Source: an uncultured Geobacter sp.
Lineage (GTDB): Bacteria; Desulfobacterota; Desulfuromonadia; Geobacterales; CAIOGM01
Direction of reading: 5' to 3'
NCBI GenBank assembly: GCA_903857795.1
Contig: CAIOGM010000004.1
Span: forward strand, 1-46,577
DNA length: 46,577 nucleotides
A program made the position numbers and the translations under genes. The notes under the pieces are model-generated. The model had not been told where the DNA came from, ran no database searches, and saw only the letters and a program-made list of their open reading frames with translations. Positions 169-32,746 of this stretch are shown here, piece after piece; the stretch's first letter is position 1; each line of letters opens with the position of its first letter.

Positions 169-1851
169 ATGCCCATGGAACTAGTGAACTGCAAATCCGC
201 TCCGTATCGTCTGGCCGCTCTCCTTGCACTGATCACGCTGGTCGTCTATCTGCCGACACTCGGGAATGACTTCGTCAACCTGGATGACGAGATTTATGTC
301 TACGGAAATGCTCAGATCCGTTCCCTGGATCCATCCTTCCTCGCCTGGGCGTTCACCGATCTTTCTGCCGGGTTCTGGCACCCCCTCACCTGGATATCCT
401 ACGCTAGCGATTACGCCGTCTGGGGTCTGAATCCCCTGGGGTATCATCTTACTGCTCTCCTCCTTCATGCCGGCAACACGTTTCTCGTGGTCTCCTTGGT
501 TGTCAGAGTATTGCACTCCGTTCATAACCCCGTGCCAGGAGGGGCTGGTCCTTCGGCTTTTCCGGAACGCAGGGATATCTGGATCGCAGCAGGGGTAACG
601 GGACTGCTGTTCGGCCTCCATCCGCTTCATGTAGAATCGGTGGCCTGGGCCAGCGAGAGAAAAGATCTTCTCTGTGCACTGTTTTCCCTGCTGAGCGTCC
701 TCACGTATCTCACATACTCTCAACAGGCAACGGCTACATGGTATCTGAACCGGCAGTACCTCCTGTCGTTTATCTTTTTTGTTCTTGCCTTATCCAGTAA
801 AACAATGGCGGTCACTCTCCCGGTCGTCTTGCTGCTTCTTGACTGGTATCCATTGAGAAGGTTCGGAGCCCGGGGAACTGCGCCTACCTTGTTTATGGAA
901 AAGATCCCCTTCTTCACCGCCGCTGTCGTGATATCGGTAGTAAGTATCGTCGCGCAGCAAGCAACCGGGGCAGTGGAATCACGGGAATCCATCTCATCAG
1001 GGGTGCGCATACTGGTCGCCTGCAAAGCGTTGATCATGTATCTCTGGAAGATGCTCTATCCGGTACATCTGATCCCTTTTTATCCCTATCCGCACAACGT
1101 GACCATTTTTTCACCGGAATATCTGGCGGCGGTAATCGCAGTGAGTGGAGTGACCGCATACTCGCTTGTCACCGTCAGGAAGCGAAAACTGTTATTGGCA
1201 CTATGGGGTTACTATGTTATTACGTTGCTTCCGGTGCTCGGTTTTGTTCGTATAGGTTCCTTTTATCTGGCCGACAGGTTTACCTACCTCTCCAGTATCG
1301 GACCATTTTTGCTCGTGGGATTAGGCGCTGCAGCTGTTTGGGGCAGGGTTGTTTCGCGGCTCTGGAGACAGTGCCTGGTGGTTTCGGCCTTGACACTGGG
1401 TATCACATTTTCATTTCTGACTGTTAGACAGACTCTATTCTGGAAAGACACTGTTACCCTGTTCACTCATACCCTGGACGTCTGTCACGATAACTGGGTC
1501 GCCCATAACAACCTGGGTTCCTACTATCTTAAAACCGGTGATATCACGAAAGCGCGCTATTACATCAACGAATCTATTCGCTGTAACCAGAACAATCCCG
1601 ACGCTTATCTGAACCTTGGTGTGATCAACAATAACCTGGGCAATCATCACCAGGCAATATACTGTTTCAAAAAGGCGTTGGGAATTCAGCCTGAGCTCGT
1701 ACCGGCTCACTTGCATCTGGGATTGGCTCTCATACTTGTTGGTGACAGGGAGGCCGCAACAGAAGAGTACAGAATCATGCAAAGACTTAATCCGGGGCAG
1801 GCCGATGTACTCTTGAATGTTCTTACTCAAACCAGCGCGACCACGAGATAA
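169..1851 (+). CDS. TMTC-like multipass membrane protein with C-terminal TPRs (paralogue 1)
   Basis: A 560-residue integral membrane protein. The first ~425 residues hold about ten hydrophobic segments; an acidic pair in the first external loop (D39-D40 in VNLDDEIYVY) and the HPLHVESVAW...SERKDLLC segment (151-169) match the conserved elements of the TMTC/GT-C family, whose eukaryotic members transfer mannose from dolichol phosphate to proteins. Residues ~443-545 form about three TPRs, normally protein-binding. Inference: a lipid-linked-sugar transferase working at the periplasmic face; donor and acceptor are unknown. The start has no Shine-Dalgarno and sits against a hairpin; ATG at 175 is an alternative. 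It is followed after 9 bases by a close paralogue. Family assignment is good, enzymatic role is not proven. Confidence 0.8.
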   Translation: MPMELVNCKSAPYRLAALLALITLVVYLPTLGNDFVNLDDEIYVYGNAQIRSLDPSFLAWAFTDLSAGFWHPLTWISYASDYAVWGLNPLGYHLTALLLHAGNTFLVVSLVVRVLHSVHNPVPGGAGPSAFPERRDIWIAAGVTGLLFGLHPLHVESVAWASERKDLLCALFSLLSVLTYLTYSQQATATWYLNRQYLLSFIFFVLALSSKTMAVTLPVVLLLLDWYPLRRFGARGTAPTLFMEKIPFFTAAVVISVVSIVAQQATGAVESRESISSGVRILVACKALIMYLWKMLYPVHLIPFYPYPHNVTIFSPEYLAAVIAVSGVTAYSLVTVRKRKLLLALWGYYVITLLPVLGFVRIGSFYLADRFTYLSSIGPFLLVGLGAAAVWGRVVSRLWRQCLVVSALTLGITFSFLTVRQTLFWKDTVTLFTHTLDVCHDNWVAHNNLGSYYLKTGDITKARYYINESIRCNQNNPDAYLNLGVINNNLGNHHQAIYCFKKALGIQPELVPAHLHLGLALILVGDREAATEEYRIMQRLNPGQADVLLNVLTQTSATTR

Positions 1852-1860
1852 CGAAAACGA

Positions 1861-3669
1861 ATGACCAGACGAAAAACTGTTGACAAGGGTTCCCCGACAA
1901 GCAGCAAGAGTCCCATAGGCAAACTGACCACGGCAACGGGCATCATGCCTGGTTTTAACTATCTGGCTGGTTTCATTGCTCTGGCGGTACTGGTGGTATA
2001 CCTCCCAACCCTCAGGAACGATTTCGTGAACTGGGACGACTACATCTACGTAGTGGACAATGTCCGCATCCGCTCCCTGAATCCCGCCTTTTTTTCCTGG
2101 GCATTCACCGATCTCTCCGCCGGATTCTGGCACCCCCTCACCTGGATTTCCTATGCTGTCGATTATGCCCTCTGGGGTCTGAACCCGCTGGGGTATCATC
2201 TGCAAGCCATTCTGCTACACGCCGGCAACACTTTCCTGGTCACCAGGCTGGTCATCAGGATTCTCGATTCTCAGAAGGGAGCAGCGACGGCGTACTGGCT
2301 GCGGCCTCTCCCCGAGGGGCGAGGGATTCTGATAGCAGCAGGGATAACCGGTCTGCTCTTTGGCCTGCATCCCTTGCATGTCGAATCGGTGGCCTGGGTC
2401 AGCGAGCGGAAGGACCTTCTCTGCGCCCTGTTCTTCCTGTTGAGCATCAGGTCATACCTGGATTATGTTCAGCGTGACGAGGGCGATGCGGGTTCCTTCC
2501 GGCTGAATGGCAGATATCTCCTCTCCCTCATGTTATTCGTCTGCGCCCTTGCTTCCAAGACCATGGCCGTGAGCCTCCCGCTGGTCCTGCTGATCCTCGA
2601 CTGGTATCCCCTCGGCAGGATCAGGTCACTGAATGATGCGACCGTCAGAGTTATGGAGAAGATTCCCTTCCTGGCGGCCAGTCTCGGGATTGCGGTCATC
2701 AGCATCGTTGCCCAGAAATCGTTGGGCGCCCTGTCCATGATGGCGACCACGCCACTCTGGTCGCGGCTGCTGGTGGCGTTCAGGGCTCTGGCCGCGTACC
2801 TGGTGATGATGCTCTTCCCGGTTCATCTCATCCCGATTTATCCGTATCCCCGGGTGATTTCTCTCCTCTCCGCGGAGTACGCCACTGCCATTGTCGTGTT
2901 CCTGGCCATTACCGCCGGGTGCATCCGGTCCGCCAGGAAGCAGCCGGTCTGGCTCGCAGCGTGGAGTTACTATCTGGTTACCCTGTTTCCCACCCTTGGC
3001 ATCGTCCAGGTGGGGGTTCACTCCATGGCGGACCGCTACACCTATCTTCCCAGCATCGGGTTGTTCCTGCTGACAGGCTTGGGCGCCGCATGGCTCTGGG
3101 GCGGGGCGAAGTCCCGGAAAGCGCCTCAACGAATTATCACTGTTTCGGCGCTCGTTCTTGTTGTTGTCCTGTCATTCCTGACGTTGCATCAGATCTCGGT
3201 ATGGCGGACCAGCGCGGAGCTCTGGAACCATGTCATAGGGAGCGGGACTTACAACCCCATGGCGTATAACAGTCGTGGCCATATGTACAAGGACCGGGGT
3301 GACTTCGACAGGGCCATCGCCGACTATGGCGTCGCCATTGCCCAGGAACCGGCGCAGGCCGAATACCTGGTCAACCGTGGTGTCGCGTACGCTGAAAAAG
3401 GCGATTTCCAGCGCGCCCTAGTCGACCTCGACCGGGCGATCGCCCTGAATCCGAAGGAGTATATGGCCTATAACAACCGCGCCAATGTCTGGTACCGTCG
3501 AGGTGATTACGACCGGGCCATTGAGGAGTTCACCCGGGCCATTGTCCTGAACCCCTTGGAGCCATTGGCGATTCAGAACCGCGGCGCCGTGTTTGAGAAG
3601 AAAGGGGACCTGGAGCGGGCGGCCAGCGATTTCAGGGAAGCGGACCGGCTTGTTGGAAGGGGCCGATAA
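1861..3669 (+). CDS. TMTC-like multipass membrane protein with C-terminal TPRs (paralogue 2)
   Basis: A 602-residue paralogue of the preceding gene. The acidic pair is at residues 59-60 (VNWDD), and the blocks FTDLSAGFWHPLTWISY, HPLHVESVAW and SERKDLLCALF are almost identical to paralogue 1, so the membrane half is strongly conserved. The TPR tail (about 470-602) differs: it has repeats of the YNNRANVWYRRGDYDRAIEEF type, closer to paralogue 3. Known family: GT-C fold/TMTC. Inference: a second transferase with a different protein partner or acceptor, selected by the TPRs. It starts 9 bases after the previous stop and is followed after 12 bases by the YfhO-like gene, so all three are probably one transcript. 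The N terminus has about 30 polar residues before the first membrane segment; an internal ATG at residue 29 is a possible alternative start. Confidence 0.8.
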   Translation: MTRRKTVDKGSPTSSKSPIGKLTTATGIMPGFNYLAGFIALAVLVVYLPTLRNDFVNWDDYIYVVDNVRIRSLNPAFFSWAFTDLSAGFWHPLTWISYAVDYALWGLNPLGYHLQAILLHAGNTFLVTRLVIRILDSQKGAATAYWLRPLPEGRGILIAAGITGLLFGLHPLHVESVAWVSERKDLLCALFFLLSIRSYLDYVQRDEGDAGSFRLNGRYLLSLMLFVCALASKTMAVSLPLVLLILDWYPLGRIRSLNDATVRVMEKIPFLAASLGIAVISIVAQKSLGALSMMATTPLWSRLLVAFRALAAYLVMMLFPVHLIPIYPYPRVISLLSAEYATAIVVFLAITAGCIRSARKQPVWLAAWSYYLVTLFPTLGIVQVGVHSMADRYTYLPSIGLFLLTGLGAAWLWGGAKSRKAPQRIITVSALVLVVVLSFLTLHQISVWRTSAELWNHVIGSGTYNPMAYNSRGHMYKDRGDFDRAIADYGVAIAQEPAQAEYLVNRGVAYAEKGDFQRALVDLDRAIALNPKEYMAYNNRANVWYRRGDYDRAIEEFTRAIVLNPLEPLAIQNRGAVFEKKGDLERAASDFREADRLVGRGR

Positions 3670-3681
3670 AAGGCGTGCTCG

Positions 3682-6114
3682 ATGAGAAAGCAGACGAATA
3701 AAAAATCACCTCTTCTCGAACGGAGGGAAACCACGCCGATTGAGGGCGCGGACGCCGGCCCGATCCACCAGATCTCCGATCTGGCGTCCGTGCTGTTTCT
3801 GGCGCTGCTGCCGATCCTCTACCTGGGCGCCGGCCTGTTTTCCGGCACGAACATCTTCGGCAGCCCGCTGGCTGACGCCAAGAGCCAGTTTTTTTACACG
3901 AGACTGTTCGGGTTCAGCTCGCTCGCCGAATTCTCCATCCCCCTCTGGAACCCCTACGTCTTCGCCGGGACCCCCTTTGTGGGGACCTTGCAATCCTCGC
4001 TCTTCTACCCCCCCAACCTGATCTTCGCCCTCCTGCCGATCGCTGTCGCCATGAACTGGAGCATCGCCCTGCATCTGGCGCTGGCGGGGATTTCCACCTA
4101 TTTCCTCCTCCGGCGCTACGGTGTGAGCGCTTTTGGGGCGACCCTTGCGGGGATGGTCTACACCCTGTCCGCGCCGCAGGTGATGCACATCTATGCCGGT
4201 CACCTGAATGCCCTCTCCTCCATGGCGTGGACTCCACTCATGTTCCTCTTGCTGGATCGGATGATCCGGGAAACGGACCTGAGGTACTGCATTTGGCTGG
4301 GGCTGACTATCTGTCTCCAGTTCCTGGCGGGGCAGCCCCAGTATCTGTTCTACACGATGATGGCCTTGACCGCGTATCTGCTGCTGTTCGGTTATATCGA
4401 AGGTAACGAGGCCGGCCGGTTCCGGATGACCTCCCGGCCCCTGATGCTGTTCGTCGCGGCAATCGCCATCGGCGTCGGTCTCTCTGCCATCCAGATTGCA
4501 CCCACCTTTGAGATGACCCGCTATTCCACCAGGGAGAATCTGACCTATGAGTGGGTGTCGCAATTTTCCTTTCCGCCCGCGCACCTGATAACCTTTCTGA
4601 TCCCGGATTTTTTCGGGGAGATGCTGAAGGTTCCGTACTGGGGGAGGAACTACTTGTGGGAGATGACGGCCTACGTCGGAATCGCTCCCCTGCTCCTGGC
4701 AATCGTGGCCGTCTGTCGTGTCCGGCAGAAGAGAGTCTGGTTCTTTGCCGGGCTGGCGGTGGCTTCGCTCCTCCTGGCGTTGGGAAAATTTACGCCGCTG
4801 CTGAAGATCGCGTACACCGTCGTGCCGGGATTCAACCTCTTTCGGGGGAACTCAAAGTTCATCTTCCTGACAGCCTTTTCCCTGGCGGTTCTCAGTGGTT
4901 TCGGGGCGGACCTGCTGCTCCGCAGCTGCCGGGACAAGGCGATGAAGCTGGTGATGCTGACCGTGGCCGGAGTTGCGGCGGTGGTGGTTCTGGTTCTACT
5001 TCAATCGTGCAGTGCCGAATGGTTCAGGCTGGCCATCAACGGTTCGGTCCGCTCTGGTGATTTCTATTCCGACGCCATGCAGATCATGACGAACGGGTTC
5101 GAGCAGGTCGCAGTCGGCAATTTCCAGAGCGGCGCCATCCTTACCCTGGGACTGCTCGCTGCAACCGTGCTGATCCTGCTGCTGACCAATTTCGACTGGC
5201 TGGACCAAAAGATCGTCATGCTCCTGCTCTTGGTGGTGGTCGGATTCGACCTGTTCACCTTCGGCAGCCGTTACATGGTTTCCTTCGACAGCAGGGGCGC
5301 CTATTGGAACCAGGAGGCCGTTGATTTTCTCAGGAAAGATCGGATGCCGTTTCGGGTCATGGCGCCGGAGATGGAAGCGAACTGCGGCATGGCCAGCAGG
5401 ATAGAGACTCTGGGGGGCTATGACACCATCATGCTCAAGCGCTTCAGTGAATACATCAACCTGGCGCATGGGACGCCGCCGGAAGAGCCTGACCTCTATG
5501 TCAATCTCACCGCTACGAATAAGCTGACCGACCTCCTGACGGTGAAGTATCTCCTGCTTGGTCCAAAATCCTCCATTGCGGAGGGAGGGCCATTCACTCT
5601 GGTCTTCAGCAACGGCGCGGCAAAGGTTTATCAGAACAAAAATGTCTTCCCCAGGGCGTTTATCGTCCATGGGGTCAAGCAACTCTCCGGTAAGCAGGCT
5701 ATTTTTCAGGAACTGGTGAAAAGTGATTTCGATCCCTGGTCGTACGCCATTGTGGAAGAAGAGGTCCCGGCTGTTTCCGGCTCGCCGGGAGAGCGGGAGC
5801 CGGTCCCGACAGTTGTGAGTCATGCCGCCCAGCGGGTGGTGATCGATGCGGTTCTCTCCCGCCCGGGCCTCCTGGTACTGGGAGACACGTACTATCCGGG
5901 GTGGAAGGTTTTTGTGGATGGCCGGGAGTCGAAGCTGTATCGCGCCAATTACCTGATGCGGGGGGTCACTCTGCCCGGTGGCAGGCACCGGGTCGAGTTC
6001 CGCTATGAGCCGTCTTCTTTCAGGATCGGCGCCCTGATCACTCTGGGGACCCTCGGTGGAGCGGCGCTCCTGTTGGCGCGGTGTCGGCGCCGCCGGCTCG
6101 AACAGAAGCTATGA
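3682..6114 (+). CDS. YfhO-family integral membrane protein
   Basis: An 810-residue protein with about 12 hydrophobic segments between residues 30 and 550, and a soluble C-terminal domain ending in the YfhO signature (DTYYPGWKVFVDGRE... then a final membrane helix and RCRRRR). YfhO proteins are GT-C-like membrane proteins; in Gram-positive bacteria they decorate teichoic acids or lipids with sugars from undecaprenyl-phosphate donors. The first external loop, after the helix near residue 50, carries DAKSQFFYTRLFG, in the place where GT-C enzymes have their acidic residue. Role here is inferred: sugar transfer on the periplasmic side, in one operon with two TMTC-like proteins. The stop overlaps the next start (ATGA at 6111-6114), indicating translational coupling to the radical SAM gene. 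Confidence 0.82.
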   Translation: MRKQTNKKSPLLERRETTPIEGADAGPIHQISDLASVLFLALLPILYLGAGLFSGTNIFGSPLADAKSQFFYTRLFGFSSLAEFSIPLWNPYVFAGTPFVGTLQSSLFYPPNLIFALLPIAVAMNWSIALHLALAGISTYFLLRRYGVSAFGATLAGMVYTLSAPQVMHIYAGHLNALSSMAWTPLMFLLLDRMIRETDLRYCIWLGLTICLQFLAGQPQYLFYTMMALTAYLLLFGYIEGNEAGRFRMTSRPLMLFVAAIAIGVGLSAIQIAPTFEMTRYSTRENLTYEWVSQFSFPPAHLITFLIPDFFGEMLKVPYWGRNYLWEMTAYVGIAPLLLAIVAVCRVRQKRVWFFAGLAVASLLLALGKFTPLLKIAYTVVPGFNLFRGNSKFIFLTAFSLAVLSGFGADLLLRSCRDKAMKLVMLTVAGVAAVVVLVLLQSCSAEWFRLAINGSVRSGDFYSDAMQIMTNGFEQVAVGNFQSGAILTLGLLAATVLILLLTNFDWLDQKIVMLLLLVVVGFDLFTFGSRYMVSFDSRGAYWNQEAVDFLRKDRMPFRVMAPEMEANCGMASRIETLGGYDTIMLKRFSEYINLAHGTPPEEPDLYVNLTATNKLTDLLTVKYLLLGPKSSIAEGGPFTLVFSNGAAKVYQNKNVFPRAFIVHGVKQLSGKQAIFQELVKSDFDPWSYAIVEEEVPAVSGSPGEREPVPTVVSHAAQRVVIDAVLSRPGLLVLGDTYYPGWKVFVDGRESKLYRANYLMRGVTLPGGRHRVEFRYEPSSFRIGALITLGTLGGAALLLARCRRRRLEQKL

Positions 6115-7511
6115 CCCCCCTCAAAGTTCTCCTCTTGAGCCCTCCCGGGAAACAGGTCTATATCAGGGACTATTACTGCAGCAAGGTTTCAAAATCCAAC
6201 TACCTGTTTCATCCGGTGGATCTGCTCATGATGAGCGGTCGGCTGGCGGAGTGCTGCGAGGTGCGGGTGCTTGACGCCATGGCGGAGCGTCTCGACAGCG
6301 CTGCTGCCGTGGCGAAGGTGGATGCCGTGGCCCCGGATCTGGTCATTGTGATGGTTGGGGCGGTATCGGCGGACGAAGACGACGCCTTCCTGGCCCGGTT
6401 GCAGAAATCCGGCCGCAGAATAGCCGTGAGCGGTGACATCACCCTGGAACAGACAGAAGAGTGGTTGCAGCGGCATCCGGGTGTTCATGCGGTGCTGCTC
6501 GACTTCACCAGCGTGGATGTCCCCAGGTACGTGGAAGATCCAACCGTGACGCTCCCCACTGTCGTGACGCGCGCCGATATCGGCCAGGCCAGAGGGTATG
6601 CCCGGCCATGCAACAAGGAATACCTGCTGCCGGCGCCCCGGCACGACTTGTTTGATTCCCGGCGGTACCGGTTTCCCTTTGTCAAAGACCGCGAATTCGC
6701 CACGGTACTGACGGATTATGGCTGTCCCTATGCCTGCACCTTCTGCAACATGAGCCGGATCGGGTATCAGTACCGCCCGGTGAGCAACGTCATGGAGGAG
6801 CTGAGAGTCCTCAAGAAGCTGGGGAAAAGGGAGCTATTTTTCATAGATCAGAGTTTTGGCGTCGACAGGACGCGGACCCTCGAACTCTGTGACCGGATGG
6901 AGGCGGAGGGATTCAATTTCGGATGGGCCTGCTTTTCGCGGGTAGACCTCCTGACGAAAGAGCTGATTGCCGGCATGCAGCGGGCCGGCTGCCATACGAT
7001 CATGCTTGGCGTGGAAACAGCCAGTCCCGAAATTCTGGAGCTCTACCGGAAAGGGTATACAAAAGCCCAGATCCGGGACGCCTTCCGCCTCTGCAAAGCG
7101 ATGAAGATCCGGACTGTCGCCACGTTTATCCTTGGGCTTCCCGAGGAAACGGAGGAGTCTGCCCGGGAGACCATGGCGTTTGCCCGGGAACTCGATTGTG
7201 ATTTCGCGTCGTTCAATATTGCGGTGCCACGAGTCGGGACCGGCCTGCGCGAGAAGGCAATCCGTGAATGTCTGATTTCACCCGACCTGGCGACCATGGA
7301 CCAGACCGGCGAACAGATTGCCATGCCGACCCGGCACCTGACGCGACACCAGGTAAAAAAAATCCGGCGCCGGGCCTTGATCGGTTTTTATCTGAGACCG
7401 GGATATCTGTGGCGGCGGGCAATGAGTATTTCCACATGGTACGAACTGGGCGAGCAGCTGTCAGAGGGGTGGTACCTTTTCAGCGGGCTCTGGTCTCAGG
7501 TTAAAGAGTGA
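6111..7511 (+). CDS. B12-binding-type radical SAM protein
   Basis: A 466-residue protein when started at the ATG that overlaps the YfhO stop; the reading frame stays open 30 bases further upstream, but the overlap and the family-typical start (MTPLKVLLLSPP) favour 6111. Residues 1-~150 look like the cobalamin-binding Rossmann half of class B radical SAM proteins, though no clear DxHxxG motif is visible, so B12 may not be bound. The radical SAM CxxxCxxC motif is C205, C209, C212 (GCPYACTFC), followed by the usual TIM-barrel blocks (FIDQSFG, MLGVETASPEIL, FILGLPEETEES). These enzymes methylate or rearrange lipids, cofactors and sugars. Substrate unknown; the setting between YfhO and a family 9 glycosyltransferase suggests modification of a lipid or glycan. 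High confidence in family, none in substrate. Confidence 0.87.
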   Translation: MTPLKVLLLSPPGKQVYIRDYYCSKVSKSNYLFHPVDLLMMSGRLAECCEVRVLDAMAERLDSAAAVAKVDAVAPDLVIVMVGAVSADEDDAFLARLQKSGRRIAVSGDITLEQTEEWLQRHPGVHAVLLDFTSVDVPRYVEDPTVTLPTVVTRADIGQARGYARPCNKEYLLPAPRHDLFDSRRYRFPFVKDREFATVLTDYGCPYACTFCNMSRIGYQYRPVSNVMEELRVLKKLGKRELFFIDQSFGVDRTRTLELCDRMEAEGFNFGWACFSRVDLLTKELIAGMQRAGCHTIMLGVETASPEILELYRKGYTKAQIRDAFRLCKAMKIRTVATFILGLPEETEESARETMAFARELDCDFASFNIAVPRVGTGLREKAIRECLISPDLATMDQTGEQIAMPTRHLTRHQVKKIRRRALIGFYLRPGYLWRRAMSISTWYELGEQLSEGWYLFSGLWSQVKE

Positions 7512-7543
7512 AGAGTGAAGAGAATTAGGAAAACGGAAGAGTC

Positions 7544-8776
7544 ATGAATATCGAATTGGTACGCAAGCTCGATTATTACCTGGGAGTGCCGCTCTGCTTT
7601 CTGGGCGCCATGCTGAAAAAATTGTGCAGCGTTGTTGTCCCTTGTCGTCACCACGGCGGGCCGAAAAACGTTCTCTGTATCGAGCTGTCCGAGATGGGGA
7701 GCGTGATCCTCGCCGATCCCGCCATGATGAAACTGAAGGAATCCCTGTCGGCTAACCTGCATTTCGCCATTTTCCGGAAGAACAGCCCAAGTCTCGATTT
7801 CCTGAACACCGTGCCGAAAGAGAACATCTTCATCATGGGCGATTCGGGTCTGTGGGATGTGGCTGCCGGTGCGGTGCGGTTCGTGTTCTGGGTCAGGAGC
7901 AAGCGGATCGATACCGTCATAGACTTGGAACTCTTTTCCCGCTTTACCGCACTCTTGACCGGAGTTTCGGGCGCCGCGTACACCGTGGGCTTTCATGCAT
8001 TTTTTAATGACGGACTCTACCGTGGCGATTTTTTGACCCACAAGGTAGCCTATAATCCCCATCAGCATATCAGCAAGAATTTCCTCGCCCTCGTCAACGC
8101 CCTGCTGAGTGATAACGGAGAAACACCCTATTCAAAAACAGTTATCAGGGATGAAGAGCTCGTTCTCCGGAAGGTGGCCGTAAGCCAGGGGGCCAGGGGG
8201 GCGATGCTGGATAAGATCCGGAGTGCGTACCCGACTCTTGATGCCGGACGGAACCGGATCATACTGCTCAATACCAATGCGTCGGATCTTATCCCCTTGC
8301 GGCGCTGGCCCCAGGAGTATTACATCTCCCTGGCTCGGAGGATTCTGGCAGAGTACCCCGCGGCGGTCATCCTCCTTACCGGGAGTCCGGAGGAACGTTT
8401 CGCCAAGGAGGCCATCGTGGCTGCGGTGGGGAACGGGCGCTGTCTCAATTTTGCCGGTATGACAAGCCTCTCCGAACTTACCGCGCTTTACTCCGTCAGT
8501 TTGTTCATGTTGACCAATGATTCCGGGCCGGCGCATTTTGCTTCTGTCACCCATATGCCGGTTTTTGTGCTGTTCGGGCCGGAAACCCCGGCGCTCTACG
8601 GGCCATTGGGCAATATGACCCCCATATATGCCGGTCTGGCCTGCTCTCCGTGCGTTTCCGCGACGAATCACCGCAAAAGCGCGTGTAACGATAATGTCTG
8701 TCTGCAGGTCATCACCGTGGAGCAGGTTTTTCAAATTCTTCGACCTATAATGCAGTGCCCTGGACACCCTGACTAG
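7544..8776 (+). CDS. Glycosyltransferase family 9 (heptosyltransferase-like)
   Basis: A 410-residue soluble or peripheral protein of the ADP-heptose:LPS heptosyltransferase family. Visible blocks are the N-terminal Rossmann half (NVLCIELSEMGSVILADP) and the C-terminal nucleotide-sugar half (LTNDSGPAHFASVTHMPVFVLFGPE), then a Cys-rich tail (ACSPCVSATNHRKSACNDNVC) typical of family members from deltaproteobacteria. Family role: adds heptose or another sugar to lipid A core or a related acceptor at the inner face of the cytoplasmic membrane. A GGAAG sequence precedes the ATG. It lies 32 bases after the radical SAM gene and probably ends the operon, as a hairpin follows at 8783-8808. The exact sugar cannot be read from sequence. 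Confidence 0.85.
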   Translation: MNIELVRKLDYYLGVPLCFLGAMLKKLCSVVVPCRHHGGPKNVLCIELSEMGSVILADPAMMKLKESLSANLHFAIFRKNSPSLDFLNTVPKENIFIMGDSGLWDVAAGAVRFVFWVRSKRIDTVIDLELFSRFTALLTGVSGAAYTVGFHAFFNDGLYRGDFLTHKVAYNPHQHISKNFLALVNALLSDNGETPYSKTVIRDEELVLRKVAVSQGARGAMLDKIRSAYPTLDAGRNRIILLNTNASDLIPLRRWPQEYYISLARRILAEYPAAVILLTGSPEERFAKEAIVAAVGNGRCLNFAGMTSLSELTALYSVSLFMLTNDSGPAHFASVTHMPVFVLFGPETPALYGPLGNMTPIYAGLACSPCVSATNHRKSACNDNVCLQVITVEQVFQILRPIMQCPGHPD

Positions 8777-8782
8777 TCGTAG

Positions 8783-8808
8783 GGTGCGCACGTTTTTTAG
8801 TGCGCACC
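8783..8808 (+). terminator. Nine-base-pair hairpin after the GT9 gene
   Basis: GGTGCGCAC (8783-8791) pairs perfectly with GTGCGCACC (8800-8808) around a T-rich loop. The stem begins 7 bases after the glycosyltransferase stop. There is no T-run after the stem, so it may be a repeat-derived transcript end or processing hairpin and not a classical terminator. 8809-8992 shows no gene I can support. Confidence 0.4.
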
Positions 8809-8992
8809 ATGAACCCGATGCACACCCCACGACAGAATTATGAAACGGTTGCGTAAATTGACCGTCACACCGTAGCGGCGCTATCTCTCGTGAACGGTCA
8901 CGAGCATCTGCTGAACTCTTGAAAAAAAATCTGCTCATCCGACTCCTGCCGTAGCCTGCTACCGTGATGCTCAAACCGGGAGGGGGCTTTTT

Positions 8993-9076
8993 ATGAACCG
9001 ACTACCCCACGTAAAAAAACATCCGCTAAAATATTTCTTGAACGATAGCAGAGATAACTGTATGATTTACGAATGA
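8993..9076 (+). CDS. Putative 27-residue leader peptide coupled to the next ORF
   Basis: ATG at 8993 is preceded by a strong ribosome-binding sequence (GGGAGGGGG, 8978-8986) at a spacing of 6 bases. It opens a 27-codon frame (begins MNRLPHVKKHP) whose TGA (9074-9076) overlaps the ATG of the following ORF at 9073 (ATGA). The following ORF has no ribosome-binding site of its own, so the peptide may exist mainly to bring ribosomes to it. No similarity recognised. It is too short to prove as a protein from sequence alone. Confidence 0.4.
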   Translation: MNRLPHVKKHPLKYFLNDSRDNCMIYE

Positions 9077-9273
9077 AAGTTAAAAGTGGATTTACGACAA
9101 CCTCATCTTTTTTTGTCGGCATGCAACTCCCGAAAAAGCTTTCGCGGGAGGCCCGCCGACAACTAGCCATCTCTCTAGCCCCTCCTGAAGCATTAGCTCT
9201 TGCGGCCAAAGCTGCAGCTATAGCAAAGCGTTCAGCCGAGCAAAATCAAGCAACGGTATATCGTGACTATTGA
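9073..9273 (+). CDS. Small protein paired with a GNAT acetyltransferase, possible antitoxin
   Basis: A 66-residue frame with a basic N-terminal half (LPKKLSREARRQ) and an alanine-rich predicted helix (PPEALALAAKAAAIAKRSAEQ). I do not recognise a family; it is not an obvious ribbon-helix-helix DUF1778 antitoxin. It overlaps the next start by 11 bases (GTG at 9263), the tight arrangement seen in toxin-antitoxin pairs whose toxin is a GNAT enzyme. It appears to depend on translation of the 27-codon frame upstream because it lacks its own Shine-Dalgarno. The function as antitoxin or partner is inference from layout only. Confidence 0.5.
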   Translation: MKVKSGFTTTSSFFVGMQLPKKLSREARRQLAISLAPPEALALAAKAAAIAKRSAEQNQATVYRDY

Positions 9274-9751
9274 GGTTATACCTGTAACCGGGAAAGACCT
9301 TATTACCGGTCCCTTTATGTCTCGGTGGCAATGTGAACGGACACGACCGGGAGAGAAGGCGGACATAAGGGCCTGTGTTGCGCTTGCCAAGAAGCATCAG
9401 GTCAAAATCCATGCGCTTCAAATCGGCAGAAGAGATTATGGTTTCGTTTCTGTAAACATTCATCAGTTACCTGATGAAAACCCTAATAAGTTCTACTTGT
9501 CAGTAGATCTTCTTTTTGTATCAAAACAATTTCGCGGGAAACCCATCGATGCACTGGAAGGAATGACCGCTTCTGCTTACCTCATGTCGATCATATTTGA
9601 AAAAGCACTTGAGGCAGCCAAATTTTTCCCTTTTGACACTATTGTTCTCTTCCCCGCTGATCCAAAGTTAATCCCTTTTTACGCCTCAATTGGTTGTACC
9701 CCGCTAATAAAAAGCAAGGGCTTCATGTTTATTTCTCTTCGTTCACAATAG
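9263..9751 (+). CDS. GNAT-family N-acetyltransferase
   Basis: A 162-residue protein starting with GTG inside the previous frame. A GNAT core is visible: strand beta-4 with KFYLSVDLLFVSKQFRGKP (about 79-97), which includes the acetyl-CoA pyrophosphate loop variant FRGKPID, a helix (AYLMSIIFEKALEAAK), and the C-terminal LIPFYASIGCTPL, equivalent to the usual FYxxxGF motif B. Family role: moves acetyl from acetyl-CoA to an amine on a small molecule, protein or aminoacyl-tRNA. Base composition is more AT-rich than the flanking glycosyl genes, suggesting acquisition as a small cassette between TMTC paralogues. It may be a TacT-like toxin with the upstream ORF as partner, but ordinary GNAT metabolism is equally possible. 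Confidence 0.7.
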   Translation: MTIEVIPVTGKDLITGPFMSRWQCERTRPGEKADIRACVALAKKHQVKIHALQIGRRDYGFVSVNIHQLPDENPNKFYLSVDLLFVSKQFRGKPIDALEGMTASAYLMSIIFEKALEAAKFFPFDTIVLFPADPKLIPFYASIGCTPLIKSKGFMFISLRSQ

Positions 9752-9985
9752 CCCTGTGTCAAGCTTGACATTCAAACATTCTCACTTGTGGTTCGCGCGG
9801 AATTCAGACAGACCAATGCAATGGTGCTGTTCGGGAAATGCCGTGTGAACGATTCCCGTCACGGGACAGCCACCGACGCCGACTACCGGGTGGAAAAGAT
9901 CAAATACGGGAAGAGCGGGAAAGAGAAGGATTTGACGACGCTCCACTGCAACGGCAAGATCACCCTCTCCGGCATACCGACAACT

Positions 9986-11929
9986 ATGAAACAAAAATCC
10001 TCCAAATCACCACGTTCTCCGGCAGTCGTCCTGCGGGAAGTTGACGATACCGCCAGGAAGGGGCGTATTCTTGCCGCCGGCGTGGCTCTCCTGACGTTCC
10101 TCGTCTACTGTCCGGCCCTTCTTAACGGATTTGTCAACTGGGACGACGATCTCTACGTGTATGGCAACCCGCACATCCTCTCCTTGAAACCGGCCTTCTT
10201 TGCCTGGGCGTTCACCGATCTTTCCGCGGGCTTCTGGCACCCGCTCACCTGGATCTCCTATGGGGTGGATTACGCCCTCTGGGGGCTGAACCCCCTGGGG
10301 TATCACCTGACCGCCATCCTCCTCCATGCGCTCAACACCGCTCTTGTCGTCCTGGTGACCGGCGCTCTCCTGGATGCGGCCCGGCGCCGGAGGGTTGCCT
10401 CCACTTTTCCGGATAATCACAACCCATGGGTAGTCGCCGGTATCACCGGACTGCTCTTCGGTCTTCATCCGCTGCACGTGGAGTCGGTGGCCTGGGTCAG
10501 CGAGCGAAAAGACCTGCTCTGCGCCTTGTTCTTTCTGTTGAGCCTTATCGCCTATGTCAACTATGCGGTTCTCAAGACGGGCGGGCAAGAACGGCGGCCG
10601 TTCCCCGGCTTTCCCCGGAGCAGGTGGTATTTCATCGCATTCCTGCTCTTCATCTGCGCCCTGTCCGCCAAGACGATGGCCGTCTCTCTGCCGCTGGTCC
10701 TGATTATCCTGGACTGGTATCCACTGGGTCGGATCCGGACGGCAGGCGACTCGGTCACCCTGCTCCTGGAGAAGATCCCCTTCGTGCTGGGCACTCTTGT
10801 TATCGCCGTTATCAGCATCATGGCCCAAAAATCCATCGGAGCTCTCGAGCTGATGGAGTCGAAACCATTTGGAACACGGTTGCTGGTGGCGTGCAAGGCG
10901 CTTGCGACCTATCTCTGGAAGATGCTGATCCCCGTGGACCTCCTCCCGTTCTATCCCTATCCGCAGCAGGTCTCACTCCTGTCGGCCGACTATCTGCTCT
11001 CCGTGCTCGTGGTGGTCGGCGTTACGGCCGGATGCATTTTCGCGGCGGAAAAAAGAAAGGTGTTGACGGCTTCCTGGCTCTATTTTCTGGTCACCCTGTT
11101 GCCGGTACTCGGTTTTGTCCAGGTCGGCATCTATGCCATGGCCGACCGTTTTACCTACCTTCCCACTCTTGGCCCTTTTCTGCTCATGGGGTTGGGAGCG
11201 GCAATGATCCGGGAGAGGCTGGCGGTCCACCGCTTGGTTGAACGTGGCGCCATGGTCGCGGCAGTTGTGCTGATAGTCGCCCTCTCTTATGCGACCGTCA
11301 AGCAGATCGCCATATGGAAGAGCAGTATCGGCCTCTGGAATTACGTCATTGAGAAGGAACCACGGCGTATTCTCTATGCCTATCTCAATCGCGGCGTGGC
11401 GTTTGGTGACAATAAGGAGTTTGGCCGCGCCGTCGAGGATTTTACCATGGCGATCAGCATGGATCCCAAATCCGGAAGTGCCTATCTCAATCGCGGAATG
11501 GCGTTCGTGGCGCAGGGAGAGTTTGATCGGGCGATCATGGATTACGATACGGTGCTAGCCCTGAACCCTTCTTCTGTTGATGCATATTCAAATCGCGGCG
11601 GCGTATGGTACCGGAAAGGTGAACTTGAGCGGGCAATCGACGACTATAACCGGGCGTTGTCCCTGCAGCCGGATTTTTTGCCTGCTCTTATCAACCGTGC
11701 CATTGCATTCAAGAAAAGGGGAGCGACGGATCGGGCTATCGAAGATTATTCCCGGGTGATCTCCTTGAACCCCGAGGCCAAGTTTTTCATCGGCCGTGGC
11801 GATTTGTATATGAAAAAAGGGGACGTGGAACGAGCCGTCAAAGATTACCGGAAGGCATGCGACCAGGGAAGCGGGGAAGGGTGTCGCAAGGCCTTTTTCC
11901 CGGTCCAGGCCTTGTTGCCCCAGCAGTAA
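9986..11929 (+). CDS. TMTC-like multipass membrane protein with C-terminal TPRs (paralogue 3)
   Basis: 647 residues from ATG 9986. The frame is open back to 9788, but those 66 upstream codons are polar and absent from the two paralogues, so I start where the family similarity begins. It has the acidic pair (D53-D54 in VNWDDDLYVY), FTDLSAGFWHPLTWISY and HPLHVESVAWVSERKDLLC, about ten membrane helices, then roughly six TPRs (about 460-640) of the AYLNRGMAFVAQGEFDRAI type. Role as for paralogues 1 and 2: probable GT-C sugar transferase with a protein-docking tail; substrate unknown. It is separated from paralogue 2 by about 6.3 kb and probably arose by duplication. The ribosome-binding site is weak. 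The 234 bases between the GNAT stop and this ATG hold only the upstream extension of this frame. Confidence 0.8.
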   Translation: MKQKSSKSPRSPAVVLREVDDTARKGRILAAGVALLTFLVYCPALLNGFVNWDDDLYVYGNPHILSLKPAFFAWAFTDLSAGFWHPLTWISYGVDYALWGLNPLGYHLTAILLHALNTALVVLVTGALLDAARRRRVASTFPDNHNPWVVAGITGLLFGLHPLHVESVAWVSERKDLLCALFFLLSLIAYVNYAVLKTGGQERRPFPGFPRSRWYFIAFLLFICALSAKTMAVSLPLVLIILDWYPLGRIRTAGDSVTLLLEKIPFVLGTLVIAVISIMAQKSIGALELMESKPFGTRLLVACKALATYLWKMLIPVDLLPFYPYPQQVSLLSADYLLSVLVVVGVTAGCIFAAEKRKVLTASWLYFLVTLLPVLGFVQVGIYAMADRFTYLPTLGPFLLMGLGAAMIRERLAVHRLVERGAMVAAVVLIVALSYATVKQIAIWKSSIGLWNYVIEKEPRRILYAYLNRGVAFGDNKEFGRAVEDFTMAISMDPKSGSAYLNRGMAFVAQGEFDRAIMDYDTVLALNPSSVDAYSNRGGVWYRKGELERAIDDYNRALSLQPDFLPALINRAIAFKKRGATDRAIEDYSRVISLNPEAKFFIGRGDLYMKKGDVERAVKDYRKACDQGSGEGCRKAFFPVQALLPQQ

Positions 11930-21507: not shown

Positions 21508-22698
21508 TTACTCGGTGACAACGAAATCCGGCCGTTCCCCGGCGCCACAGAGCCATCGATACAGGCGCACGGTTTTTTCCGCAGCGGATGGCCAGGTATA
21601 GCCCTCCTGGACAACTCTCCGGCCGCGCTGCCCCATGATGATGAGTCTCTCTGCGGGGAGGGGCAATGCTTGGGCCAACGCGTGCCGCAGCGCCTGGGCG
21701 CTGATGTCGACCCACCAGCCGCACTGTCTGGTGTTGAGCTCTTCCCACGGGGAGGCCGTGGTCGTAATGACGGGGACCCCCGCCGCAAGGCTTTCCAGGA
21801 TGACCAGCGGTGCGCCTTCGCTGTGAGACGGGAGAACGAAGAGTTCCGCAGCGGCAAAGGCGTCCTCCTTGAGGCGGTCGTAGAGCGGGCCGATTATTTT
21901 TATCTTCGCAGTCAGCTTATGCCGTTCCAGCAGCTGTTCAATCTCTGCCCTATGGTTGAACTCGTCTTCGCCGGCAATGAGCAGCAGCCACCCGGCGAAC
22001 GTCTCGCCCAGTGACTGTATTGCCTCGATCAGCAGAGGTAACCCTTTCTTGGGGGTGATCCGCGAGAGAAACAGCACGATGCGGGTATCGGTGCTCAGGT
22101 TAAACTGCCGCCTGAACCGTTCCGGGCAAGGGGGGACAGTACCGTGATTCGCTACCGCGCCATTGGGGATGACCGCAATGGGGTTCTTGAGTCCGAACCG
22201 ACGGAACCGCTCTACTTCCGATTGGGCCAGGGCATGAAGGCAGGAGGCGCTCTCGAGGTTGTCCCGCTGGTAGGCGGTCAGGGCGATCCGTTTCTTCAGC
22301 CGTGAATTGTTAAGCGCCCATTCGTCCAGGGAACCATGGGGGGCAATGATGGTGGGGAGACCATATTTCTTGCGGAGGATGTTCGTGGCAATGGAGCAGC
22401 TTGTCCAGAGACAGTGTTGATGGATGATGTCAAGGCCCCGCCCGTCGGGCCCGTACGCCGCCTTGATCATCCGGGGAGAAAACCAGAGCCTGCGTGAGCC
22501 GAATAACGGAAAACCGGATATCGCGCCGGTCGCCAGGCCGGCCTGTTGTGAAGCCCAGATGATCTCATCCTGTGAGTCGAAGCTCCAGATTCGCGCGTTG
22601 TTGCCGAGAATCCCCTGCTCTTTTACCAGGTTCAGGGCGACAGGGCCCAGGCCGTAGGACTCCTTGCCGACGAGCATGGTCGTGTGCAGGATGTTCAT
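21508..22698 (-). CDS. Glycosyltransferase family 4
   Basis: 396 residues with a GT-B two-domain fold: N-terminal acceptor half with IIAPHGSLDEWAL (about 139-151), linker VIPNG, then LFLSRITPKKGLPLLIEA and the donor-sugar motif SEGAPLVILESLAAGVPV with the EX7E pair. The APHG...W block is typical of WcaI/PelF-like polysaccharide transferases. Role: adds a sugar from a nucleotide donor to the lipid-linked repeat unit in the cytoplasm. It is translated from the same minus-strand transcript as the next gene; its ATG overlaps that gene's stop (ATGA at 22695-22698). Sugar and linkage are unknown. Confidence 0.88.
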   Translation of the reverse strand: MNILHTTMLVGKESYGLGPVALNLVKEQGILGNNARIWSFDSQDEIIWASQQAGLATGAISGFPLFGSRRLWFSPRMIKAAYGPDGRGLDIIHQHCLWTSCSIATNILRKKYGLPTIIAPHGSLDEWALNNSRLKKRIALTAYQRDNLESASCLHALAQSEVERFRRFGLKNPIAVIPNGAVANHGTVPPCPERFRRQFNLSTDTRIVLFLSRITPKKGLPLLIEAIQSLGETFAGWLLLIAGEDEFNHRAEIEQLLERHKLTAKIKIIGPLYDRLKEDAFAAAELFVLPSHSEGAPLVILESLAAGVPVITTTASPWEELNTRQCGWWVDISAQALRHALAQALPLPAERLIIMGQRGRRVVQEGYTWPSAAEKTVRLYRWLCGAGERPDFVVTE

Positions 22699-23819
22699 GG
22701 AGTGGAGACGGAACGTACCGCCTGCTCGAACGACTCTACCATTGACTGGATGGAGAACTCTCCCTCAATCTTCTGCACTCCGCGGGAACTCATGGCCGCC
22801 AGCCCCGCCTGGTTGCGCCACATCCTGACAAGCGTTGCCGCGAGATCGTCCGGGTCGTTGCCGGTGAACGAGCATCCGGTCACGCCGGGTTCGAAGACAA
22901 CGATCTCCGGGCTGTGGGGTTCACCCTCCGCCACCAGGAGCGGCACCCCGTAGGCCAGCGCATGTACGGCGCTCAGCCCCAGATACCCCGGTGAGACCGC
23001 CACCCAGCTGCTGTTGAAAAATGGGGCCAGGTCGGCTTCCTCGGTGAGTTTCCCGGTGAACTGCACCCGATCATGGATGCCGAGCTCTTGGGAAAGCCGC
23101 ATCAGGCTTTCGAGCTCCGGACCATCGCCGATCAGGGTAAGGCAGACGTCGGAAGGGAGTCCCGCCGTCGCGCGGGCAAAGCCGTGAAGGAGGAGCCCGA
23201 CCCGTTTTTCAGAAATGAGCCGCCCGGAACAGATGATGTTCGTGCGGAGGTCGTTCTCCCACGGATGGGAGAGGCGCCGGATGGTCCGGGTATCCAGTGA
23301 ATTTGCGGCGATGAATACATATCGTCGGGGCAGCCCCCAGGAGATAACCTCCCGGGCGCGGAGCTTGTCGTAGAAGATGTAGCCGTGCAGCAGCCTCGGG
23401 ATCCAGCTCCTCAGCTTACGAACGGGCCATGTCTGCCGGGAACCGATGCCGTGTCCCCAGAGCAGGATTTTCTTTCCCAGGAGTCGCCCAAACAGGCAGA
23501 GGCACAGGTTTGACAGGATCTGAGGGTCGGACTCCAGGATGAGAACGTCGATGTTCTTATCCCACGCCAGGCGGATCGCGCCCCTCTGCCAGACCCATCG
23601 GCCGCTCTTCCCCAGCCAGACATTTTCCAGGGGGAGATGCCGGATCCCGTCAGGGGCGACGCTCTGCAGGGAATCTCCGGGAAGGGCTGAACCGAAGGCG
23701 ACCGAGAAGCTGACGGAGCAGGAGTGGGTCAACGCGGTGTAGAACTGCTTCCGGTAGTGGGGGCAGATCCTTTGGAGCACAACAGCCCGCAACGTGGTAT
23801 GGTCATGGTCACCGGCCAT
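22695..23819 (-). CDS. Glycosyltransferase family 4 with altered EX7E site
   Basis: 374 residues, first gene of the minus-strand pair. GT-B features: SGRLISEKRVGLLLHGF, LTLIGDGPELESL, and the donor block SPGYLGLSAVHALAYGVPLLV. The usual EX7E acids are replaced by G and A/H (PGYLGLSAVHA), a variant seen in a sub-branch of GT4; either that branch uses another residue or the enzyme is unusual. Likely adds a sugar to the same polysaccharide as its neighbours. Divergent from the methyltransferase gene; 79 bases separate them and must hold both promoters. Only a weak ribosome-binding site is visible. Confidence 0.85.
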   Translation of the reverse strand: MAGDHDHTTLRAVVLQRICPHYRKQFYTALTHSCSVSFSVAFGSALPGDSLQSVAPDGIRHLPLENVWLGKSGRWVWQRGAIRLAWDKNIDVLILESDPQILSNLCLCLFGRLLGKKILLWGHGIGSRQTWPVRKLRSWIPRLLHGYIFYDKLRAREVISWGLPRRYVFIAANSLDTRTIRRLSHPWENDLRTNIICSGRLISEKRVGLLLHGFARATAGLPSDVCLTLIGDGPELESLMRLSQELGIHDRVQFTGKLTEEADLAPFFNSSWVAVSPGYLGLSAVHALAYGVPLLVAEGEPHSPEIVVFEPGVTGCSFTGNDPDDLAATLVRMWRNQAGLAAMSSRGVQKIEGEFSIQSMVESFEQAVRSVSTP

Positions 23820-23898
23820 CTGGAGTTCTCATGGGCGGTAGTGTACGCATCTTTCCAGCAAGAGACAAGTTCGTTTTTTCACCGGAGGCGGTACGCGG

Positions 23899-24696
23899 AT
23901 GGACAAAATCGAGTGGAAAAACAGCAGCTATGAGACGGTCGGTGGTGAACTGATACCTCAGGCCCAGACCCTTGGCGCCGGATATAATCAGGAGTCGGGG
24001 ATCAGCCGAAACTCACCGATGAAACTGCTGTTGAAACGGCTGCTCTGGCCTCTGGTCAATCTGCGCAATTATCTGGTGATAGACGGTTTCATCCAACGGG
24101 AAGCGGGGAGGCTGATCACCGGATACCTGACGGCGGGCTCGGTGTTTCTGGAAATCGGTTGTGGAGACATGAGCCTGAGAAAATATCTGCCGGAAAATTT
24201 CTGGTACAACGCCCTGGATCTCAATCTGTCGGATTTTCATATTCTCAGGGCTCTCGGGAGCAGGGAGAGAACCAACATTGTCGTGGCTTCGGCCACCGAG
24301 ATTCCTGCTTCCTCGAACGTTGCGTCACTGCTCGTCTCAACCGAAACATTCGAACATATTCCGGACATAGACAGGGCAGTGGACGAAATTCATAGAGTGG
24401 CAAAACCGGGTGCGGTGCTGATCTGCAGCATCCCCAACAACTACTGCCGCAAATATGAAGTCAAGGGGCCTCACCCCGGACATATTCAGGCGTGGAGTTA
24501 TGATGAATTCAAAGCATATATGGAAAAACGGAACTTCGAATTTATTGAAGGATTCATGAAGGGTAAATGGCTTCCCTTCCCCCTGTGGCTAACGAAGAGC
24601 TCTTACCAACTGCCGCTTTCATCGGTGTCGGAGAAAGACAATACAAATTTTTTCTATGTGTTTCGTGTCCGAAAAACCGGGACCATTGACCGGTAA
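23899..24696 (+). CDS. Class I SAM-dependent methyltransferase
   Basis: 265 residues. Motif I is SVFLEIGCGDMS (about 77-88), then the acidic strand end ALDLNLSD and the post-motif ASATEIPASSN and FEHIPDIDRAVDEIHRVAKPGAVLI, the type 11 methyltransferase arrangement. Genes of this sort in polysaccharide clusters methylate a sugar or cap the chain. GGAGGCGG precedes the ATG by about 8 bases. A short gap of 85 bases leads to the GT11-like gene. The first 40 residues are polar and weakly conserved; internal ATG at residue 41 (MKLLLKRLLWPL) is a possible alternative start. Substrate not known. Confidence 0.82.
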   Translation: MDKIEWKNSSYETVGGELIPQAQTLGAGYNQESGISRNSPMKLLLKRLLWPLVNLRNYLVIDGFIQREAGRLITGYLTAGSVFLEIGCGDMSLRKYLPENFWYNALDLNLSDFHILRALGSRERTNIVVASATEIPASSNVASLLVSTETFEHIPDIDRAVDEIHRVAKPGAVLICSIPNNYCRKYEVKGPHPGHIQAWSYDEFKAYMEKRNFEFIEGFMKGKWLPFPLWLTKSSYQLPLSSVSEKDNTNFFYVFRVRKTGTIDR

Positions 24697-24781
24697 AGCT
24701 TGACGGAAAATGCCGAGGCATGTCACTGTTGTTCCGCTAAATGCGCACTACTGGCGGGATGAGTGCCGGGAAAGGGAGAGG

Positions 24782-32736: not shown

Positions 32737-32746
32737 GGAGGCGTCT

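Follow-up and report, generated by a model that had tools for sequence, protein, structure and literature searches.

A conserved, putative glycosylation unit of TMTC-like paralogues, YfhO and a radical SAM enzyme in relatives of Geobacter

TMTC1-4 of animals (CAZy GT105) are O-mannosyltransferases of extracellular cadherin (EC) domains, and they combine an N-terminal half of the glycosyltransferase C (GT-C) type with C-terminal tetratricopeptide repeats (TPRs). It has been proposed that the TPRs of TMTC1-4 and of TMEM260, which modify immunoglobulin (Ig)-like EC and IPT domains, recognise the acceptor (PMC11292533). The marked residues of the animal TMTCs are an acidic Asp-Asp (DD) pair and an Arg before transmembrane helix 10, and prokaryotic homologues with TPRs, one of them deltaproteobacterial, have already been noted (PMC7801869). 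A second described system, CsbB-GtcA-YfhO of Bacillus, Listeria and Staphylococcus, includes the membrane protein YfhO, which in Gram-positive bacteria (Firmicutes) transfers sugar from polyprenyl phosphate and glycosylates teichoic acids (PMC8035078). Here we analyse a stretch of DNA, the window, that is the whole of contig C4 (46,577 bases; CAIOGM010000004.1) of an uncultured Geobacter sp., whose genome is available as 4.05 Mb in 179 contigs. Near its left end, three TMTC-like genes (TMTC_A, TMTC_B and TMTC_C) flank genes for a YfhO-family protein, a radical S-adenosylmethionine (SAM) enzyme and a glycosyltransferase family 9 (GT9) protein. We conclude that this cassette is a real, conserved glycosylation unit with paralogues that look acceptor-specific; its enzymes are of known kinds, and we found no report of their combination in the literature searched.

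TMTC_A (169-1851), TMTC_B (1861-3669) and TMTC_C (9986-11929) lie on the + strand, as do all the cassette genes between them, and each encodes a GT-C membrane half followed by a TPR tail. Homology among the three proteins was confirmed by BLASTP, with full-length identities of 50% (A/B), 47% (A/C) and 51% (B/C). A first-pass annotation, made from the sequence alone, had described their GT-C halves as nearly identical, which overstates an actual identity of 55.4-58.5%; the tails are 23-40% identical. By inspection, the tails of 128, 147 and 196 residues hold about three, four and five repeats, respectively, so the earlier counts for TMTC_A and TMTC_B stand and that of six for TMTC_C does not. 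Pfam TPR matches are present in all three proteins, and residues 463-601 of TMTC_B match TPR proteins structurally. For TMTC_C, the ATG at 9986 is likelier to be the start than the GTG at 9788, which opens the longest open reading frame (ORF; 9788-11929).

The N-terminal membrane half of the TMTC-like proteins, as modelled for TMTC_B, is predicted to have the GT-C fold. An AlphaFold2 model built from a 52-row alignment reached a pLDDT of 93.0 and a pTM of 0.93; this half was folded alone, since the fold search with the full-length model had filled with TPR proteins. VIA-align matched it to 8agb_A (oligosaccharyltransferase, OST/STT3; Z 20.2, 327 aligned, 4.6 Å), 9i5l_A (Pmt4; Z 19.0, 345 aligned, 4.9 Å), 6p25_B (Pmt1-Pmt2; Z 18.5, 344 aligned, 4.5 Å) and 5f15 (ArnT; Z 16.3, 323 aligned, 4.8 Å). 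Judging from their titles, we take all 50 of the 50 structural matches listed to be GT-C-fold proteins (STT3/AglB/PglB, Pmt, ArnT, ALG9/12, DPY19, Aft, Emb and PIG-U). Foldseek alone gave weak matches for this half (best E 5.5e-4), and sequence searches of the PDB with it gave none. The DD pair, which lies in 'FVNWDD' of TMTC_B, was followed through 163 homologues from loci found by similarity to the TMTC or ResB proteins under study or by two conserved motifs other than the DD pair. Its first Asp is kept in 163/163 and its second in 159/163, together with Lys204 (163/163) and Arg363 (158 of 162). Loss of the acidic pair from most homologues, which the first-pass annotation had named as evidence against its reading, is thus not what is seen.

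The same residues bear on whether the TMTC-like proteins are TPR-carrying membrane scaffolds or chaperones that retain the fold and are no longer glycosyltransferases. TPR tails are typical of scaffolds, and a reported function or tested activity of a bacterial TMTC-like member was not found in the literature searched, which speaks for a scaffold and against an enzyme. However, the acidic pair, Lys204 and Arg363 are near-invariant over divergent homologues, and DPM-synthase-like GT2 genes, by a loose criterion, were seen at 17 of 78 named TMTC-like loci within the flanking sequence retrieved (up to 10 kb, often cut short by contig ends). We therefore regard a scaffold as very improbable.

With animal TMTC1-4 the proteins share the GT-C N-terminal half, the DD pair in the first loop, an Arg before a late helix, C-terminal TPRs and the occurrence of several paralogues per genome. 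Unlike the animal enzymes, they are not matched by PF08409 (TMTC_DUF1736), and the bacterial gene set includes YfhO, radical SAM and GT9 genes. No match to PF08409 was obtained up to E 1 in 52 GT-C halves, in TMTC_A, TMTC_B or TMTC_C at E 0.001, or in the source genome; 14 control genomes were likewise without a match. We therefore describe the proteins as TMTC-like in their way of working, without assigning them to GT105. TMTC-like genes are often found in tandem arrays; at most 12 candidates were scored per genome, and six genomes of the order reach this ceiling. The source genome itself has two more distant, convergent TMTC-like genes with a 912-aa ORF between them (L060, G000:C176, 5055-11200), and the match of the first extends past a TGA.

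We surveyed 141 genomes of the order for the unit; handles beginning with G denote genomes, with C contigs and with L loci. The gene order TMTC_B-YfhO-radical SAM-GT9-TMTC_C is kept in G147 and, minus GT9, in G132, and the order B-YfhO-radical SAM-C is hence common to three genomes. The linked unit proposed by the first-pass annotation is thereby borne out, and YfhO and the radical SAM enzyme do accompany TMTC genes outside the source genome. TMTC_B has orthologues in G147, G132 and G159 and TMTC_C in G147 and G132, and the YfhO orthologues of G147 and G132 are 54-55% identical to the window's protein. In the window, TMTC_A and TMTC_B are separated by 9 bases, TMTC_B and YfhO by 12, and the radical SAM and GT9 genes by 32, while the YfhO stop and the radical SAM start overlap as ATGA. 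TMTC_C follows GT9 after 1.2 kb in the window and after only 6 bases in G147; in G132, where GT9 is missing, the radical SAM and TMTC_C genes overlap. Close homologues of the radical SAM enzyme (E <= 1e-100) occur in 6 of the 141 genomes (the source, G147, G132, G010, G167 and G187), and the gene is missing from the three other genomes of the window's genus. Among the 78 named TMTC-like loci, radical SAM-like genes were found in 5, GT9-like genes in 6 and a YfhO-like gene in 1, which counts against generality; the family is widespread, and the unit is therefore one of its rare arrangements.

A maximum-likelihood tree built quickly from 77 GT-C halves, with SH-aLRT supports, placed the window's three genes, the B and C genes of G147 and G132 and the B gene of G159 in one clade of 8 rows (support 97). 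Within this clade the B genes group together and the C genes group together, each with a support of 91, below the 95 mark; without the window genes both groups reach 97. TMTC_A branches alone within the clade, and its tail is 22-32% identical to the other tails. Tail identity is 52.4-60.5% between B proteins (6 pairs) and 49.0-56.5% between C proteins (3 pairs), and drops to 33.5-41.5% between B and C (12 pairs), with no overlap with the within-group values. The GT-C halves show overlapping ranges (53.2-60.2% within groups versus 48.4-58.3% between), although their tree still resolves the B and C groups. The TPR tails thus differ in an orthologue-specific way, and this B/C split, as a pattern in the sequences, is what would be expected of the acceptor-specific transferases that the first-pass annotation had postulated.

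The YfhO-family membrane protein (810 aa; 3682-6114, + strand) scores 105.2 bits against PF09586 (cut-off 28.5) and is, to judge by its family, a GT-C-type glycosyltransferase. A YfhO member above the Pfam cut-off is common to this unit and the CsbB-GtcA-YfhO system, and the use of polyprenyl-phosphate sugars, as in that system, is the mode expected here. In contrast to that system, the unit has no CsbB- or GtcA-like gene, and the acceptors there are teichoic acids (PMC8035078). The radical SAM enzyme (6111-7511; PF04055, 81 bits) carries CxxxCxxC at C205/C209/C212 of the 466-aa form, invariant in 7/7 aligned sequences. Its profile has AprD4 as best PDB match (6fd2, positions 24-413, E 7.6e-46), and AprD4 (NF033070) and HpnJ are its two best NCBIfam models; because it scores far under both cut-offs (148 bits versus 500 and 140 versus 577.6, respectively), neither function is assigned to it. 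AprD4, a radical SAM diol dehydratase of the apramycin pathway, and HpnJ act on sugar-like substrates, and by this analogy our best guess is therefore that the enzyme modifies a sugar. The earlier placement in class B (cobalamin-binding) radical SAM enzymes was not upheld, as no B12-binding match was obtained, only PF04055 at E 0.001; the same kind of scan picked up PF02310 in another cytochrome-cluster protein.

The GT9 protein (7544-8776; PF01075, 70 bits) can be aligned with the heptosyltransferase structures 3tov, 1psw and 2gt1. It has PF01075 in common with the WaaC/WaaF heptosyltransferases and differs from them by an Asp-to-Ser/Thr change after the Gly of the MGD-type motif. The position of the catalytic Asp, D13 in HepI (PMC5713226), is Ser in the window's protein and Ser or Thr in all six proteins aligned, namely those of the window, G147, G010, G167, G187 and a metagenome-assembled genome (MAG) of Nitrospirae (L066). 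These GT9 proteins may use another base or another reaction. The Nitrospirae protein is 65% identical and has TMTC genes nearby. A polyprenyl-phosphate mannose synthase was also sought in the source genome, and a candidate, the DPM-synthase-like protein L225 (best PDB match 5mlz, E 2.5e-26), was found along with two ArnC/PgfS-like polyprenyl-phosphate-sugar synthases that fall below their cut-offs. Sugar donors are therefore plausible, the mannose suggested by the first-pass annotation being at most a candidate for the sugar.

These companions also suit a role in which an envelope glycan or lipid (lipopolysaccharide (LPS) core, O antigen or exopolysaccharide), not a protein, is decorated. YfhO and the TMTC proteins would then add polyprenyl-phosphate sugars, GT9 and the radical SAM enzyme would build or alter a core sugar, and the TPR tails would organise the complex. 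ArnT modifies lipid A, and the GT9 family includes the LPS-core heptosyltransferases. Furthermore, in the stretches fetched from G010, G167 and G187, the radical SAM gene stands near GT9 (32-36% identity) and no TMTC gene is present, which favours an envelope glycan and weighs against a protein acceptor. The glycosylation of teichoic acids by Firmicutes YfhO points the same way (PMC8035078). On the other hand, the B and C tails are distinct across genomes, a better fit to protein acceptors, and the top Z matches are the protein-glycosylating OST and PMT enzymes; yet ArnT is near them, and a fold shows no function. The placement of the cassette within a cytochrome-maturation cluster in G147 and G132, described below, further argues against an envelope glycan, which we consider a somewhat unlikely substrate.

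We infer instead, tentatively and at slightly less than an even chance, that the unit is an inner-membrane or periplasmic (O-)glycosylation cassette whose acceptors are selected by the TPRs, with multiheme cytochromes as possible acceptors. In such a pathway, the DPM-synthase-like and ArnC-like GT2 proteins encoded elsewhere in the genome would make polyprenyl-phosphate sugars, which would then be flipped outward. TMTC_B and TMTC_C, joined here by TMTC_A, would each put sugar on Ser/Thr residues of exported proteins selected by their TPR tails, and YfhO would add a further sugar from polyprenyl phosphate. Either the sugar or its carrier would be the cytoplasmic substrate of the radical SAM enzyme and GT9, with the radical SAM enzyme possibly acting by AprD4-type radical dehydration or rearrangement. 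In the cassettes of relatives that stand in cytochrome clusters, the acceptors would be the giant cytochromes or their partners.

Geobacter clusters of multiheme cytochromes with ResB/ResC are of a kind already described, and such pairs may be dedicated to the neighbouring multiheme cytochromes; the accessible text of that paper does not mention the TMTC insert or the PMT-like gene (PMC2700814). In both G147 and G132, a cytochrome-maturation cluster houses the cassette, with CcsA on one side of it and a SPASM radical SAM gene on the other. Upstream of it in G147 are ORFs with 23 and 13 CxxCH motifs, a lipoprotein-like ORF, p256, a PMT-like GT-C gene, ResB and CcsA; in G132, PMT, ResB, CcsA and a 156-aa ORF precede it, the contig begins at PMT, and the stretch holds no cytochrome. 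The order contains 13 matches to the G147 ResB at >=52% identity, itself included. CcsA and the SPASM gene are at most 482 bases apart in 9 of these 13 loci, and a 154-aa ORF lies between them in G136; the gap is 9.3 kb in G147 and 8.2 kb in G132, filled by the cassette, and G161 and G124 are arranged differently. In G159, of another family (f3), the TMTC_B orthologue is preceded by cytochrome-like genes and by a CcsA (37% identity); no ResB match was found beside it, and the contig ends after it. Cytochrome clusters of G181, G138 and G161 contain more distant TMTC-like genes, and in G124 such a gene lies at the border of a cluster. In all, nine TMTC genes were seen in cytochrome clusters (two each in G147 and G132, one each in G159, G181, G138, G161 and G124) out of at least 465 matches in the order, the surroundings of a minority of which were examined.

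ResB-like matches occur in 36 of the 141 genomes. Among 42 ResB-anchored regions, CcsA is present in 42/42, an ORF with at least 4 CxxCH motifs in 33 (34 if a G147 cytochrome cut by its region is included), a PMT-like gene in 16 and the TMTC-YfhO-radical SAM-(GT9)-TMTC insert in 2. TMTC genes are found in 6 of the 42 (G147, G132, G181, G161, G124 and G138), with 0.92 expected (P 2.5e-4). The expectations are lower bounds, as TMTC counts are at-least values in many genomes, and the P values given here and below are both optimistic. The 42 regions correspond to 44 of 50 ResB rows (two of G220, G038, G063, G001:C435 and G136:C188 were left out), two G018 regions among them overlap, and a 21% match to TMTC_C in G245:C231 is uncounted, G245 having no profile match at E 1e-25.

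Several observations weigh against the proposed link to cytochromes. TMTC-like genes are widespread and expanded in the order, their matches falling in 99/141 genomes, and 36 of the 42 ResB-anchored regions are without one. When G147, G132 and G181 are removed from the test because they were found through TMTC, 3/39 regions remain versus 0.87 expected, a marginal excess (P 0.055). G147 and G132 belong to one genus (g2), and their arrangement may therefore be one event. In the window, no ResB, CcsA, PMT or SPASM match was found, and the unit is bordered by the contig end on one side and by unrelated genes on the other; the G147-type ResB is likewise absent from the source assembly. The cytochrome link is therefore a property of relatives, in which it provides the strongest hint at an acceptor. 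The single genus, the marginal excess and the bare window are also what would be seen if the neighbourhood were coincidental, an ancestor of G147 and G132 having acquired a mobile or often shuffled island between CcsA and the SPASM gene. However, the TMTC_B orthologue of G159 stands after CcsA in another family, the TMTC-like genes of G181, G138 and G161 lie between cytochrome and ResB-side genes on the same strand, and all four genomes are outside genus g2. We thus judge coincidence unlikely, and the tie of the cassette to giant multiheme cytochromes to be suggestive but unproven.

The contig holds 168 bases ahead of TMTC_A. Exact prefixes of the window, compared with the five CcsA contigs of the genome taken whole, were unmatched except for one exact 15-base match inside C171. 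A locus of the source genome (L254, G000:C111, 1-9089) holds a cut cytochrome ORF (15 CxxCH), CcsA, rSAM502 (77%), a LuxE-like protein and, truncated at the contig end, a BchE-like radical SAM gene. In the window itself, positions 34353-36695, 22 kb downstream of the unit, encode a protein similar to cytochrome c554/c7 that has 8 CxxCH motifs as well as TPR and HEAT repeats. IPT/TIG domains, the Ig-like kind modified by animal TMEM260, turned up at 3 of the 6 cytochrome loci that include TMTC (G147, G161 and G124; not G181, G138 or G159) and at 1 of the 6 that do not (G003), from a scan of some of the cytochromes at each locus; the G132 stretch has no cytochrome. These loci are too few for the domains to be claimed as a mark of TMTC-bearing clusters. 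Giant 13-CxxCH proteins with IPT/TIG are encoded in L061 (5051-10579), L178 (14727-19607), L181 (10774-15804) and L177 (934-6594). Between the giant cytochrome and the TMTC-like gene of G181 lies the gene of a PMT_2 protein with TPRs (L057, 4668-6881, 738 aa), a further tailed GT-C enzyme in this setting. Cytochrome clusters often include a BchE-like B12 radical SAM gene (412.9 bits, cut-off 481), for example in L171 (G120:C53, 11630-15729), to whose protein the other copies are 74-83% identical, and the close-ResB clusters also have a NirJ/MoaA-like radical SAM enzyme of the SPASM type and, in many cases, a PRK07208 FAD oxidoreductase. The BchE-like, SPASM and PRK07208 enzymes are possible tetrapyrrole or quinone modifiers.

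ORFs were called mechanically as the longest frame and sometimes lie antisense; statements on neighbourhoods rest on tblastn. Within the cassette span, the 162-aa ORF between GT9 and TMTC_C (9263-9751, + strand, 43% G+C) gave no match in Pfam, NCBIfam, PADLOC or plasmid searches and is probably an intruder outside the unit. A 66-codon ORF (9073-9273) lies just upstream of it, and the AT-rich stretch 8777-9985 resembles an insertion not present in G147. The G+C fraction is 0.43-0.49 from GT9 to TMTC_C, 0.55-0.59 from TMTC_B to GT9 and in TMTC_C, and 0.52 in TMTC_A. Because this 1.2-kb AT-rich stretch intervenes, co-transcription of TMTC_C with GT9 in the window is doubtful. Further downstream, two GT4-type ORFs (minus strand) and a GT11 fucosyltransferase-like ORF (plus strand) at 21508-25687 form a possible second glycan locus, and a short ORF matching type III methyltransferases and a HEPN-domain ORF at 32194-33479 may be what is left of a restriction or toxin-antitoxin locus.

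OmcS and OmcE filaments are glycosylated (PMC9473688). No paper naming the enzymes responsible was found in the literature searched, and in the accessible text of a 2026 review of cytochrome nanowires (PMC12954529) the stem 'glycosyl' occurs in the reference list only. A bolder version of our proposal, which we hold to be rather doubtful, is that an optional O-glycosylation cassette has slotted into giant multiheme-cytochrome loci of Geobacter relatives, that its TPR tails recognise different parts or members of the assembly, that the attached sugar is modified by the radical SAM enzyme, and that the cassette would be the missing machinery for some surface cytochromes. If true, it would parallel the modification of Ig-like domains by animal TMTC and TMEM260, as some giant cytochromes carry IPT/TIG. 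The presence of the cassette inside the cytochrome cluster of two relatives and its absence from most sister clusters offer a natural with/without comparison, and one cassette gene stands beside cytochrome genes in a third relative, giving defined genes to delete. The unit would also link an AprD4-like radical SAM enzyme to glycosylation, and may serve as a bacterial system for testing the TPR-directed choice of acceptor proposed for the animal TMTC enzymes.

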